Assembly (NCBI GenBank): GCA_016841825.1 | Contig: JAENYK010000008.1 | Span: 62,001-126,000, forward strand | DNA from: Halothermothrix sp. | GTDB lineage: Bacteria > Bacillota > Halanaerobiia > DY22613 | Length of the DNA: 64,000 nt | Direction: 5' to 3' | Part shown: positions 24,122-52,804 of the stretch, in pieces | Numbering within the stretch: position 1 is the stretch's first letter | How the letters are laid out: each line of letters opens with the position of its first letter | Program-made: the position numbers and the translations under genes | The notes under the pieces: model-generated | What the model saw: the letters and a program-made list of their open reading frames with translations, nothing else | What the model was told of the DNA's origin: nothing | The model's database searches: none

Positions 24122-24209
24122 TTAATAAGAAGTATTTTTAAGAAAAGTTTTCTACAAGAACAAAATAGAGTCAAGAGAACCTAAGCGGCTGCCTGGCTTT
24201 GCCGCTAAT

Positions 24210-24464
24210 CTTCGTTAGGTGAGGCTCCTATACTAGATATATGCTACTGCCCGGAAACATCGAAAGATGCCAATGGGTCAACAGGGATTACCGACTTAAG
24301 GTTTTACCTAATGTAGCTGGACTCAGTCCAAAGCTGTATAGTGCCAAAACTCAACGAATGGAGATATGATACGCCAATTTAGAATTGCTGGCGTTGTTCT
24401 TTTGTGCATTTAATTCTCAAAATGCCAAAAACCTTCCATTCGTTGTGGAAGGTTTTATTTTTTT
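24210..24464 (+). promoter_or_regulatory. M-box (ykoK) magnesium riboswitch with transcription terminator
   Basis: The aptamer (about 24210-24364) contains the conserved ykoK-leader blocks CTTCGTTAGGTGAGGCTCCT, GCTACTGCCC, GCCAATGGGTCAACAG and AGCTGGA, and is closed by P1 TTCGTT (24211-24216) with AACGAA (24353-24358). CAACGAATGG (24352-24361) is the exact complement of CCATTCGTTG (24436-24445), which sits in the terminator loop and arm. With Mg2+ bound, P1 holds the first sequence and the terminator (24427-24464) forms; without it the antiterminator forms and mgtE is transcribed. Class identification rests on established M-box sequences; the switching helices are read directly. Confidence 0.95.
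24427..24464 (+). terminator. Riboswitch-controlled terminator upstream of mgtE
   Basis: An 11-bp stem AAAACCTTCCA / TGGAAGGTTTT with loop TTCGTTG is followed by ATTTTTTT. Confidence 0.93.
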
Positions 24465-24633: not shown

Positions 24634-25977
24634 ATGATGAATGAAAAATTCCTTGAGTTAATCGCCAACAAAAAAATATCCTCGATCAAAGAACAATTAA
24701 AAGCTATACAACCAGTTGATATTGCTGAGATTCTGGATGAGATGGACAACGTAAATAGTCTCTTAATTTTTAGATTGCTGCCGAAAGAGACAGCAGCAGA
24801 AGTATTTTCTCATCTTTCCACTGATAAACGAACAGAACTATCCATGTTGGTTAGAGAAGATGAGTTAAAACTTATTATTGAAGACCTATACTTTGATGAT
24901 ATGATCGACTACCTGGAAGAGATGCCTGCCAATGTAGTCAAAAGGATTTTAAAAAACACCAGTGAAGTTGAACGCAAACTGATTAATCAATTCTTGAATT
25001 ATCCAGATAATTCTGCCGGCAGTATTATGACCATTGAATACGTTGATTTAAAAGCTAACATGACTGTTGCTGATGCTTTACAAAGAGTTCGTAAAACTGC
25101 ACCAGACAAAGAAACAATCTACACCTGCTATGTCACTAATAGCTTGCGCAAAATGGAAGGCATTGTCTCTTTGAAGGATCTGGTTCTGGCCCCAGTAGAT
25201 ACAACCATCAGGGAAATAATGAAAGAAAAATGGATCGGGGTCAACACTCATGATGACCAGGAAGAAGCCGCCGCACTGTTTAAAAAATATGATCTCTTAT
25301 CTATGCCTGTAGTCGATAACGAAGGCCGTTTGGTAGGGATCATCACTATTGATGACATTGTTGATGTTATTGATGAAGAGAATACCGAAGACTTTCAAAA
25401 GATGCATGCGATTCAACCTTCTGATGAGGGGTATCTGGAAGCTGGAGTCTTCAGTTTAGCCAAAGTTAGAATCCTCTGGTTATTAATTCTAATGTTTTCT
25501 GCCACCTTTACGGGTTATATTATCCGCCAATATGAAGGACTACTGCAATCCACAGTGGCACTGGCAGCATTTATCCCAATGCTAATGGGTACAGGTGGTA
25601 ACGCTGGAGCTCAATCTTCTTCTCTGGTAATCCGCGGTATTGCTTTAGGAGAAGTAGAGCTTAAAGATTTTTTCAAAGTTATCTGGAGAGAAGTCCGGGT
25701 TGCCGTAATCGTAGGAGTTGCTTTAGGAATTTTAAACTTACTGCGAATTATTTTCCTTGAAGGGAGCAGTTTTAATATCGCTCTTGTGGTGTCATTAACT
25801 CTCTTAATTACTATAACTGCCGCAAAAATTATGGGAGGTATTCTACCACTTTTGGCTAAAAGTTTAGGAATTGATCCCGCTATCATGGCAAGTCCACTAA
25901 TATCTACTATCGTTGATGCGATTACTCTGATCACTTATTTCACCATTGCCGGAGCAATTTTGGGAATTGCGATATAA
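24634..25977 (+). CDS. mgtE: Magnesium transporter MgtE
   Basis: A 447-residue protein with the MgtE layout: helical N domain (about 1-125; LPKETAAEVFSHL, LEEMPANVVKRIL), two CBS domains (about 130-255; MSRKVIT-like NDHDD replaced by GVNTHDDQEEAAALFKKY) and five membrane helices (about 280-447). The pore signature PMLMGTGGNAGAQSSSLVIR lies at about 312-331. It is a homodimeric Mg2+ channel gated by cytoplasmic Mg2+. AAGGAGG precedes the ATG. The M-box riboswitch upstream fits Mg2+ homeostasis. Confidence 0.96.
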   Translation: MMNEKFLELIANKKISSIKEQLKAIQPVDIAEILDEMDNVNSLLIFRLLPKETAAEVFSHLSTDKRTELSMLVREDELKLIIEDLYFDDMIDYLEEMPANVVKRILKNTSEVERKLINQFLNYPDNSAGSIMTIEYVDLKANMTVADALQRVRKTAPDKETIYTCYVTNSLRKMEGIVSLKDLVLAPVDTTIREIMKEKWIGVNTHDDQEEAAALFKKYDLLSMPVVDNEGRLVGIITIDDIVDVIDEENTEDFQKMHAIQPSDEGYLEAGVFSLAKVRILWLLILMFSATFTGYIIRQYEGLLQSTVALAAFIPMLMGTGGNAGAQSSSLVIRGIALGEVELKDFFKVIWREVRVAVIVGVALGILNLLRIIFLEGSSFNIALVVSLTLLITITAAKIMGGILPLLAKSLGIDPAIMASPLISTIVDAITLITYFTIAGAILGIAI

Positions 25978-28632: not shown

Positions 28633-28731
28633 ACTCCTACTTCTATAAGTGAGAGCTGCCTTGTTCTACTTCAGATGGAGTTGAATCCCCATCTGAAGCC
28701 ACAAGGTTCAGTTTTAGCTGAACAAGCTCAC
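28633..28731. repeat. Nested palindromic element (IS200/IS605-end-like)
   Basis: About 95 bp holding CTCCTACTTC/AAGTGAGAG, a perfect 10-bp stem CTTCAGATGG (28669-28678) / CCATCTGAAG (28689-28698), then GTTCAG/CTGAAC. An outer CTTGTTC / GAACAAG pairing brackets the last two. It supplies the last codons of the GNAT gene ending at 28714. Blocks ACTTCTATAAGT and CTACTTCAGATGG resemble copy A read on the other strand. Confidence 0.6.
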
Positions 28732-29301
28732 TGTATTTTTTCTATGCCAATAATCACTTTTCAAAATGGCCAGCACAATAGTGCTGGTCAATTCACCTTT
28801 GATATAATCTCTTTCTCTAAGAAATCCTTCTTGCAGAAAATGATTCTTCTCCAATACACGAATAGATGCCTCATTTTTGGGATTAACAGTAGCTTCGATT
28901 CGGTTTAAACAAATCTTTTCAAAACCAAAAGTCACCAATTTACTAATGACTTCAGTAATGTAACCTTTGTTCCATTCACTCTTTTTTAAGGAATAACCTA
29001 TCTCACAACGTTCTTCGATCTGATGAAAATCTCCTAATGCACAGGTTCCGATCAAGACATCATCTTCCTTTCGAGCAATTGCCCAGATAATCTCTTCCTT
29101 TTTTGTAAATAACCACTTAAAACTCTGAATAAACTGCCAGGAATCTACCCTGGTCTTATGAGGTAAAAACCAATCAAATTCAGCTACATCCGGATCACTA
29201 TATAGTTCAAAAAGAGCATCAACATCGGAGTCCAGACATTCCCGAAGGATCAACCGCTCTGTTTCCAGAATAGGAAATTTTTCAAAAAAATTCAGGTTCA
29301 T
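28714..29301 (-). CDS. RimJ/RimL-type GNAT acetyltransferase
   Basis: A 195-residue protein: start FPILETERLILRECLDSDVD, acetyl-CoA loop region CEIGYSLKKSEWNKGYITEV (about 97-116), then RIEATVNPKNEASIRVLEKN and GFLRERDYI. It probably acetylates an N-terminal or small amine. The ATG at 29301 with GGAGAGGAAG upstream is preferred to 29331. Its last four or so codons and stop lie within the palindromic element at 28633-28731, so the original C-terminus may have been replaced by an insertion. Confidence 0.87.
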   Translation of the reverse strand: MNLNFFEKFPILETERLILRECLDSDVDALFELYSDPDVAEFDWFLPHKTRVDSWQFIQSFKWLFTKKEEIIWAIARKEDDVLIGTCALGDFHQIEERCEIGYSLKKSEWNKGYITEVISKLVTFGFEKICLNRIEATVNPKNEASIRVLEKNHFLQEGFLRERDYIKGELTSTIVLAILKSDYWHRKNTVSLFS

Positions 29302-29477
29302 TTCGCTTCCTCTCCAATGCAAAAATAGCATATGGCTATTTAATGGTAAATTTAAGCATACTTTCTCTTAATTCGTCAATAATAAATATTCTCCTCTATA
29401 ATTATAACATTCTTCCCTATTAATTCACAAAAATAGTTTTCAAAATTAGGATTGAATAGCAAAACTCATAACCTTAT

Positions 29478-50079: not shown

Positions 50080-52014
50080 TTATTTGAAATCCTCCAACTT
50101 TACACAGATCTCCTCCCATTCTGCCCACAGATGCTCCAATTCTTCTTGAATTCTGTCATTCTCTTCTTTTAATTCCTGGAGATATTGATAATTAGTTATT
50201 ACGTCTGACTGAGTCATTAAATTATTATTTTGCCCAATTTTGTCTTCACATCCGGCAATACTCTCTTCTATTTTTGCCAATTCTTTTTGGAATCTTTTAC
50301 TAAGAATCTGCCCCTTCACCTCCTTATTTCTTTTTTCTGGTCTGACCTTCTGTTCACATTTTGCCTTTTTAACAATTTGTCCGGTTTGTTGTTCTTGCTT
50401 TTGTTTTAATTTCATCTGATAGTAATCATAATTACCGGGATAGTAAACCAGCTCCCCTTCTTCTAATGCATAAATCTGATCCACTATGTTGTTTAAAAAA
50501 TATCTATCATGAGAGACCACCAATAATGTAGCGGTATAATCCTGTAGTGATTCTTCTAATATCTCGATAGATGGTAGATCAAGATGATTAGTTGGTTCAT
50601 CCAGGATTAATAGATTCACCTGGCTGTGAACCATTTTCATCAGAATAAAACGACTTCGTTCACCGCCACTTAAATCTTTTACCAGCTTAAAAACAGAATC
50701 ACCAGTGAATCCATAATAGGCAAGGGTGTTGCGGGCACTCGTTTCTGACATCGGTTCTGCTGTCATTCTAAAGGCATCTAACACTGTTTCAGTCTCTTCT
50801 ACTATATCCTGGTGCTGCTCAAAATAACCTATTTGAACACTGGCACCAATGGTTAGCTGCCCATGGTCAGGTTCTATCTCCTGCATAATCATTTTGAGAA
50901 TGGTGGATTTGCCAGCACCATTGGGACCAATCAAACCTATTCGCTGTCCAAAGAATATCTGTAAATCTAGTGGATTAAACAGTGGTTGATTCGAATAATT
51001 TTTGGTTACTCTCCGTAAAGTCACTACTTCCTTACCACTTCGCTCAGCACCAAACTTTAATTGAAAACGAGTTTCATCCTTCAGGGGACGATCAACCTTT
51101 TCCATCTTTTCTAATTGTCTCTCCATAACTTTCGCCCGTTTATATAACATCTCATTGTCTGCCTGATTTGCCCAGATACGAAGTCTTTTGATAGCCTCTT
51201 CTTTTCGCTGAATCTCTTTTTGCTGATTCTCATATTCCTTTAACGCCAGTTGATGACGTATCTCCCGCTCTTGAAGATAGTATGAGTAATTACCAGAATA
51301 ATCTTCTGCTTTACCATGTTTAACCTCAACAATTCGCTGAATTGTATGATCGAGAAAATAACGGTCGTGAGAGATAATGATTACTGTTCCCTCAGAGTGA
51401 TTAATATACTCTTCTAACCAGGTGATAGCTGAAAAATCTAAATGGTTTGTAGGTTCATCCAATAAGATAACATCTACATCTGAAAGAAGAAGCACTGCCA
51501 ACTGTAATCTGGCCATCTCACCTCCACTCAAATCCATCACCTGACTGCTAAATGGAACCGTTAATCCCAATCCTTGAATAATCTGTTTTATCCTCTGTTC
51601 AAAAGTATAACCACCTTGATTTTCAAAATCTGTCGCCAGTTGAGCATACTCTTTCATATAACCTTCTATTTTATTGGAAGCTCTATCTGCACTGGCCATC
51701 AATGATTCCAACTCTCTTAATCGCTGTTCCATAATAAGCAGATGATTAACACCTTTCCATAATCTTTCTTCAACAGTCTCTCCTAAATGACGCTCTGGAA
51801 TTTGGGCCAGATAACCGATTCGCAAATTTCTACCAATAGCGACTATACCTTTGTCAGCTTCCTCTAACCCACTGATCAATTTTAAAATGGTAGATTTACC
51901 AGAACCGTTAGCTCCAATTAATCCCACTTTCTCACCAGGATTGACTGTCATCGAAAAGTCTAGAAGAACTTCTCCTAAACCGTAATTTTTCTCGATATGT
52001 GATAATGTTATCAT
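50080..52014 (-). CDS. ABC-F ATPase, YdiF-like
   Basis: A 644-residue soluble protein with two ABC domains and no membrane segment. Domain 1: GLIGANGSGKSTILKL, MDLSGGEMARLQLAVL, VILLDEPTNHLDF; then the linker (EEAIKRLRIWANQADNEMLY, about 270-290) that reaches into the ribosomal P site area. Domain 2: GLIGPNGAGKSTILKM, LSGGERSRFILMKM, LLILDEPTNHLDL. A C-terminal coiled coil (about 565-644) matches B. subtilis YdiF. ABC-F proteins rescue stalled or drug-bound ribosomes. The gene has its own promoter and a leader of about 340 bases (52040-52356) with a short ORF and several hairpins. Confidence 0.93.
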   Translation of the reverse strand: MITLSHIEKNYGLGEVLLDFSMTVNPGEKVGLIGANGSGKSTILKLISGLEEADKGIVAIGRNLRIGYLAQIPERHLGETVEERLWKGVNHLLIMEQRLRELESLMASADRASNKIEGYMKEYAQLATDFENQGGYTFEQRIKQIIQGLGLTVPFSSQVMDLSGGEMARLQLAVLLLSDVDVILLDEPTNHLDFSAITWLEEYINHSEGTVIIISHDRYFLDHTIQRIVEVKHGKAEDYSGNYSYYLQEREIRHQLALKEYENQQKEIQRKEEAIKRLRIWANQADNEMLYKRAKVMERQLEKMEKVDRPLKDETRFQLKFGAERSGKEVVTLRRVTKNYSNQPLFNPLDLQIFFGQRIGLIGPNGAGKSTILKMIMQEIEPDHGQLTIGASVQIGYFEQHQDIVEETETVLDAFRMTAEPMSETSARNTLAYYGFTGDSVFKLVKDLSGGERSRFILMKMVHSQVNLLILDEPTNHLDLPSIEILEESLQDYTATLLVVSHDRYFLNNIVDQIYALEEGELVYYPGNYDYYQMKLKQKQEQQTGQIVKKAKCEQKVRPEKRNKEVKGQILSKRFQKELAKIEESIAGCEDKIGQNNNLMTQSDVITNYQYLQELKEENDRIQEELEHLWAEWEEICVKLEDFK

Positions 52015-52039
52015 ACTTAATTCCTCCTTTTAATTGCAT

Positions 52040-52145
52040 AAAAAAACCATAAACAACCCTGTCTATGGCGATGGTATCCAATCGTAATTATCGTATTTGA
52101 AAATATAACAACCATAGTCAGGATCTCAACCTGTACTATGGTTGT
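52040..52145 (-). promoter_or_regulatory. Putative attenuator in the ABC-F leader
   Basis: On the minus strand a perfect 11-bp hairpin ACAACCATAGT / ACTATGGTTGT (52108-52145) is followed by CCATA / TATGG with a T7 run (52040-52068), just before the ABC-F ribosome binding site. CTATGG of the first 3' arm can instead pair with CCATAG of the second 5' arm, so the structures exclude each other. A further hairpin GCGTG / CACGC lies at 52153-52183. The terminator stem is weak (5 bp). Confidence 0.4.
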
Positions 52146-52213
52146 CAGAATCAGCGTGGATTTATTTTCAGATTAATCTGCACGCAATGTATTCCAATAT
52201 CAACTTATAAAAG

Positions 52214-52333
52214 CTAATTTAGACCAAATTTACAGGTTGAACGCAACTTATCTAATTTTGGACAGACTACTCCCTTGGTGAAAAGATAATTTGCACACTG
52301 AATATAATGGAAGTATGTGCCTTTGCGTTCCAT
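52214..52333 (-). CDS. 39-residue leader ORF upstream of the ABC-F gene
   Basis: ATG 52333 has AAGGAGGG 7 bases upstream, as good as any gene here, and lies about 23 bases after a promoter. The product (MERKGTYFHYIQCANYLFTK to FGLN) has three Cys (13, 24, 34) and matches no family I know. Position between promoter and attenuator suggests a regulatory leader peptide, but a free-standing small protein is equally possible. Confidence 0.6.
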   Translation of the reverse strand: MERKGTYFHYIQCANYLFTKGVVCPKLDKLRSTCKFGLN

Positions 52334-52362
52334 GTTCAACCCTCCTTAATTTAATCCTCTCC

Positions 52363-52392
52363 ATTATACCATAATTTAGGCATATCCTTCAA
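52363..52392 (-). promoter_or_regulatory. Promoter of the leader ORF and ABC-F gene
   Basis: On the minus strand TTGAAG (52387-52392), 18 bases, then TGGTATAAT with an extended -10 (TATAAT 52363-52368). Start near 52356. Confidence 0.7.
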
Positions 52393-52555
52393 GCAAAATT
52401 TTTTTCGCATATTTTATCCAGGCTGGCTGATTAATTGTCTTTATTTTCCAAACAACTTTGTCAGGTATTAACTAAATTATCCGGGTATATATCTTCTGAT
52501 AATGAAAAAACCTAAAGACATAGTTCCAACAACAAAAAATATAGGAGGTACTCTC

Positions 52556-52804
52556 ATGCAGCAGTTAGAAGTCTATTGTTCTGTCAGTAATTGCCATTAT
52601 TGGAGTCAAGGTAATCATTGTCATGCTAATAAGATTCTTATTACTTCAGATTCTGTTGGTGCTGATCAACCAGATAATTTTGATGCTCCTGAAGTAACCA
52701 ATTCTTTACAAACTCCCTGTAATAGCTGTATGGAAACTTGCTGTAAATCCTTTGTGCACAAGGATTCACAAGGTGTCACAGTTGACGGTATCTATAAACA
52801 ATAA
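52556..52804 (+). CDS. DUF1540 cysteine-rich protein
   Basis: An 82-residue protein. VYCSVSNCHYWSQGNHCHAN is the DUF1540 pattern; a second Cys cluster TPCNSCMETCCKSF follows (about 57-70), giving eight Cys in all, probably a metal-binding fold. AGGAGG lies before ATG 52556, so the longer frame from 52502 is not used. It is a paralogue of the 55-residue protein at 17767. Ends in a terminator; monocistronic and divergent from the ABC-F leader. Confidence 0.88.
   Translation: MQQLEVYCSVSNCHYWSQGNHCHANKILITSDSVGADQPDNFDAPEVTNSLQTPCNSCMETCCKSFVHKDSQGVTVDGIYKQ

Follow-up and report, generated by a model that had tools for sequence, protein, structure and literature searches.

The ABC-F gene at 52 kb of the 64-kb window (the whole stretch of DNA analysed here) is preceded by a leader which, judged from predicted RNA folding, is reasonably likely to be a ribosome-mediated transcription attenuator of the vmlR, cplR and msrD kind, with initiation-stage stalls, and not cysteine, as the signal sensed. 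As in those systems, a uORF with a ribosome binding site lies between promoter and terminator, and an intrinsic terminator stands before the main gene; a competing antiterminator that depends on ribosome position was found in silico, at a chosen transcript length. Six leader segments pair as 1:2, 2:3, 3:4 (hairpin P1), 4:5 (antiterminator) and 5:6 (terminator). Neighbouring helices of this ladder are mutually exclusive, and it links the leader's strongest long helices. The elements are listed below; promoter-like sites, Shine-Dalgarno and uORF were read from the sequence, P1 was placed by folding, the terminator by folding and a terminator scan, and the ABC-F gene by its ORF and profile matches.

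52363-52392, minus strand: promoter-like site TTGAAG-18-TATAAT with extended -10 (TGG), 10/12 matches
52342-52349, minus strand: Shine-Dalgarno of the uORF, AAGGAGGG, a near-perfect ribosome binding site
ATG 52333 to TAG 52214, minus strand: uORF of 39 codons, MERKGTYFHYIQCANYLFTKGVVCPKLDKLRSTCKFGLN
52334-52342, minus strand: segment 1, the SD-to-AUG stretch (GGGUUGAAC), partner of segment 2
52330-52323, minus strand: segment 1', uORF codons 2-4, alternative partner of segment 2
52231-52246, minus strand: segment 2, uORF codons 30-35, partner of segment 1 or 3
52125-52147, minus strand: segment 3, 5' half of P1 (anti-antiterminator), partner of segment 2 or 4
52106-52125, minus strand: segment 4, 3' half of P1, alternatively the antiterminator strand, partner of segment 3 or 5
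52055-52069, minus strand: segment 5, 5' half and loop of the terminator, copy-like of segment 3 (CCATAG-ACAGG)
52039-52055, minus strand: segment 6, 3' arm of the terminator and T7 tract, partner of segment 5
52147-52135/52118-52106, plus inner CAGG:CCTG, minus strand: P1 hairpin
52129-52102, minus strand: second promoter-like site, inside P1
52069-52060/52055-52046, then T7, minus strand: intrinsic terminator hairpin
50080-52014, minus strand: ABC-F gene, 644 aa

Several elements that an earlier note on this DNA had pointed out are indeed present. The extended -10 promoter is there with its TG, though a count of such sites does not by itself make it significant, the shuffled region giving a mean of 2.5 promoter-like hits as good as 52392-52363. 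The uORF has the excellent ribosome binding site and the Cys content described, with three Cys residues at codons 13, 24 and 34, and P1 and the terminator with its T7 run do precede the ABC-F gene. The terminator scan returned a single site in the leader, where shuffles give 0.2 on average, and a strong ribosome binding site lies 3' of the terminator, directly before the ABC-F gene. Translation of the uORF and termination in the leader probably both take place, as parts of the predicted RNA device. A transcription start further downstream, from the site within P1, is conceivable on sequence grounds.

The folding of the 347-nt leader beat all of 100 dinucleotide shuffles (z -3.4). The mutual exclusion that the earlier note had seen between the pairings 52108-52145 and 52040-52068 did not hold, and P1 (P=1.00) and the terminator (P=0.999) coexisted in the same ensemble. 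The CTATGG/CCATAG pairing invoked for that exclusion nevertheless proved to be the core of a real competing helix, much longer than had been noted. This helix, 4:5 (52125-52111 with 52069-52055), is 14 bp long with a single A-A mismatch, at -18.3 kcal/mol, and competes against both P1 (3:4, -24.0 kcal/mol) and the terminator (5:6, -12.2 kcal/mol). Beyond the earlier note, uORF codons 30-35 (segment 2) pair with the 5' half of P1 over 11 bp (2:3, 52241-52231 with 52135-52125, -14.7 kcal/mol) and with the uORF start region over 9 bp, at -12.5 kcal/mol with segment 1 and -11.5 kcal/mol with segment 1'. The ladder was assessed by duplex and partition-function tests instead of a gapless-helix automatic search, which overlooked the link between 2:3 and 3:4 because P1 contains a bulge.

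When one partner was shuffled, helix 4:5 was matched in strength by only 1-2 of 5000 shuffles and helix 2:3 by 8-18 of 5000, the native 2:3 energy was reached by 57 of 5000 synonymous uORF recodings, and helix 1:2, ordinary in a free scan, was unusual with the SD-to-AUG stretch fixed (70/5000), all of which somewhat overstates the case since the segments were picked after viewing the sequence.

We then considered how the ladder depends on the ribosome, using equilibrium folding of growing transcripts in which the ribosome was mimicked by stretches forced to be single-stranded; the transcript length taken as the decision point was, like the segments, chosen after seeing the sequence. With segment 1 covered, 2:3 formed before segment 4 emerged. 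A footprint at codons 1-3 gave the combined 2:3 and 4:5 state with P=0.71 at exposed end 52055, and the antiterminator fell to P=0.52 at end 52054 and 0.35 at 52051. Its probability was 0.00 with no ribosome or with the ribosome at the later codons tested, among them the Cys codons 13 and 24 and the Cys-34 stretch; larger footprints left a partial antiterminator signal at codons 4-6. None of 300 synonymous uORF recodings reproduced the start-dependent switch. RNA polymerase usually covers 12-14 nt of RNA, and we infer that its pausing in the T tract exposes the RNA to about 52055. In the full-length transcript terminator and P1 always won, which means that the device could work only as a kinetic race. 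The outer stem of P1 might also stand beside 2:3 as a partial pseudoknot, a structure outside the model of the software.

The proposed course of events is as follows. With no ribosome on the uORF, 1:2 would form, P1 and the terminator would follow, and transcription would stop (OFF). A ribosome running to the end of the uORF would cover segment 2, again leaving P1 and the terminator (OFF). A ribosome held at codons 1-3, by inhibitors of the initiation stage or of the first peptide bond, would instead cover segment 1; the freed segment 2 could then pair with 3, and the released segment 4 with 5. Helix 4:5 would hold back the terminator until RNA polymerase has moved on into the ABC-F gene (ON), and the product, an accessory ABC-F of ribosome-protection type, would relieve the stall. 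What the analysis shows are the pairings, their strengths, how they depend on the footprint in equilibrium folding at the decision point, and the leader layout of the paralogues; which drug induces the gene and what the ABC-F protein does are inferred.

A stronger form of this proposal is a two-sided position sensor, in which the last codons of the uORF are the switch strand and the gene is ON only with a ribosome at the start codon, being OFF both without a ribosome and after completed translation. We put it forward tentatively, with the balance somewhat against it. If true, it would account for the length of the 39-codon uORF, and initiation-stage and elongation inhibitors would be told apart by the design of the RNA and not by peptide sequence. 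In the ermC-type 1:2/3:4 attenuator, which acts on translation of the methylase, segment 2 becomes free to pair with 3 once a ribosome occupies segment 1. The same segment-1 logic would apply here, with helices 4:5 and 5:6 added to make a transcription switch.

Control by a uORF, a terminator and ribosome stalling is established for the ABC-F genes vmlR (PMC9226507), cplR (PMC10201436) and msrD (PMC10314930). With the vmlR leader of Bacillus subtilis, the present one shares the uORF, anti-antiterminator, antiterminator and intrinsic terminator before the ABC-F gene, and in both the trigger is a ribosome at the uORF start, by prediction in our case; the vmlR uORF, however, has 3 codons (MIN) and lies within the anti-antiterminator (PMC9226507), whereas here there are 39 codons and a distal coding segment is the strand that would start antitermination. 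The cplR leader of Clostridioides difficile likewise has a uORF and a terminator, and it controls an accessory ABC-F through ribosome stalling (PMC10201436), as is predicted here. In cplR the uORF reads MRI, and translational attenuation is added because the SD is sequestered in the terminator stem (PMC10201436), while the SD of our ABC-F gene lies 3' of the terminator and is exposed in the predicted fold. With msrD the leader has in common a leader peptide and, by prediction, an intrinsic terminator upstream of the ABC-F gene that a stalled ribosome keeps from acting. The stall on msrDL (MYLIFM) occurs at the stop codon via contacts between peptide and drug (PMC10314930), and the one predicted here is at the start.

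What sets the present leader apart is a long uORF whose distal codons serve as switch strand, with a predicted trigger limited to the first three codons. With this position-specific design one could test cleanly whether a uORF that encodes no special peptide tells stalls at the start codon from those further on. The proposal would also carry ribosome-sensing attenuation beyond the named resistance families, to a further ABC-F clade from a lineage that is sparsely sampled.

The ABC-F protein passed the NCBIfam model NF000355 (ribosomal protection-like ABC-F) with 465.8 bits against a cutoff of 380, and it carries the ABC_tran_Xtn linker and a C-terminal domain. It fell below every curated cutoff of the Vga, Msr, Lsa, Sal, OptrA, CplR and producer models. 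Among proteins of solved structure, E. coli YheS is the closest to it in sequence. In a tree whose long branches leave deep placements unsure, it joined its two nearest orthologues (L044 and L045), then a class-wide clade and the Listeria and Staphylococcus proteins, and did not group with YheS, EttA, Uup, YbiT, OptrA, MsrE, VgaG or LsaE. It is an accessory ABC-F of an unnamed clade outside the named ARE families, distinct from the mutM-linked housekeeping ABC-F of the same genome.

With this protein as query, seven ABC-F genes were found in the genome that encodes it. The one downstream of mutM (L003) is the housekeeping copy; it has no leader, and orthologues of it occur in related families as well as in the family's one other genome (L084). 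Five of the seven, namely the query gene, L004, L006, L007 and L008, are preceded by a uORF and a terminator. By one automatic criterion, a uORF with a strong hairpin terminator was found for 5/7 ABC-F genes against 4/49 other genes of the 64-kb window, from which the base rate was taken (Fisher p 6e-4), and this base rate is an upper estimate since one of the four non-ABC-F hits, examined at 28714-29331, is the terminator of the upstream gene. The four paralogue leaders resemble that of the query in having a promoter, a uORF and a terminator before the ABC-F gene. The uORFs of the five leaders differ (with some doubt over where that of L004 starts), and no sequence homology with the query leader is evident except for CCATAG/CTATGG hairpins in L004 and L008. 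Generic pairing and simple equilibrium scans of the paralogue leaders showed no robust start-dependent switch. Learning which leader answers which inhibitor would tell what the uncharacterised ABC-F proteins protect against.

Among the individual leaders, L007 has a 30-codon GTG uORF upstream of its ABC-F gene. Within this uORF, a 14-base stretch is complementary, counting G-U pairs, to the terminator's 5' arm, with a pairing energy of -18.3 kcal/mol where the terminator stem has -18.8 kcal/mol, and is a candidate antiterminator. Of the two uORFs of L008, MRK lies ahead of the terminator, and MINRWKSSY follows it and precedes the gene; an MRK uORF also occurs in some vmlR leaders (PMC9226507). 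The 5.08-Mb genome contains ten CCATAG...CTATGG inverted repeats, and three of them are hairpins of ABC-F leaders, at C2:326227, C16:114112 (P1 of the window) and C38:213208 (L072, L074, L077). The number expected in ABC-F leaders is ~0.006, or ~0.06 if repeats are confined to a tenth of the genome, and the three may reflect a shared origin, a shared binding site or coincidence. In other genera, a Listeria ABC-F gene (L081), whose product is 43% identical to the query, has the same layout with a uORF and a clear terminator, and a Staphylococcus ABC-F gene (L083) has a uORF upstream. These two uORFs, of 36 and ~31 codons, look related across the genera (MFL...(I/V)R..FS....L.KS).

The earlier note's reading presupposed that uORF and pairings are conserved among orthologues, and formally this is not what was found: both are absent from the two nearest orthologues (L044, 55%, and L045, 53%), neither of which has a comparable leader, although at only ~55% identity these are not close, and four further ABC-F genes of this genome carry a leader of the kind. 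No credible uORF homologue was found in 59 class genomes, plasmids and phages, and among 398 sampled phylum genomes (E below 1e-185) there was no orthologue beyond the genome itself; a contig search of genomes returned only distant ABC-F relatives. The exact leader is a singleton, and what speaks for it is internal design and analogy, not covariation.

The earlier note had also proposed ribosome-mediated attenuation with the Cys content of the leader peptide in view. The kind of device is well supported, but not the part assigned to cysteine. Attenuation by stalling inside the uORF, through cysteine shortage or, at a later codon, through a context-specific drug (a macrolide, for instance), appears improbable to us. 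Three Cys in 39 codons would suit it, as would the Cys in the uORFs of L007 and L083 and in that from one possible start in L004, and drug sensing within the peptide is known from the msrD and erm leaders (PMC10314930). A stall at the Cys codons, however, leaves the switch off in our folding, which makes Cys content an unlikely sensor and led us to reject cysteine sensing through the leader peptide; the sequence of the Cys-34 codon is explained by its place in pairing segment 2, and the ABC-F protein has no evident tie to cysteine supply.

The leader might instead be constitutive or read through, with P1 and the terminator as tandem terminators (for instance a remnant of an earlier gene arrangement), expression coming from the promoter in P1 or from leakage, and the uORF incidental. 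The second promoter-like site at 52129-52102 and the leaderless nearest orthologues are consistent with this, and P1 and the terminator look alike enough for duplication to be possible. Yet the near-perfect ribosome binding site directly 3' of the promoter, the antiterminator match 4:5, the loss of the switch in all 300 synonymous uORFs and the recurrence of the layout on the paralogues speak otherwise, and we regard this reading as rather unlikely. Least credible, and very improbable in our estimate, is a riboswitch or a leader bound by an antiterminator protein in place of a ribosome sensor. The three inverted repeats in ABC-F leaders could be a shared binding site, but an Rfam search of the leader gave nothing at gathering score and only chance-level matches below it, and sensing of a metabolite or protein needs no uORF with a strong ribosome binding site.

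Two further features of the window were recorded. A divergent gene at 52502-52804 encodes a Cys-rich DUF1540 protein. An M-box (magnesium) riboswitch at 24204-24369 (150.7 bits) lies ~265 bases upstream of an mgtE-like gene (24634-25977), an ordinary arrangement.
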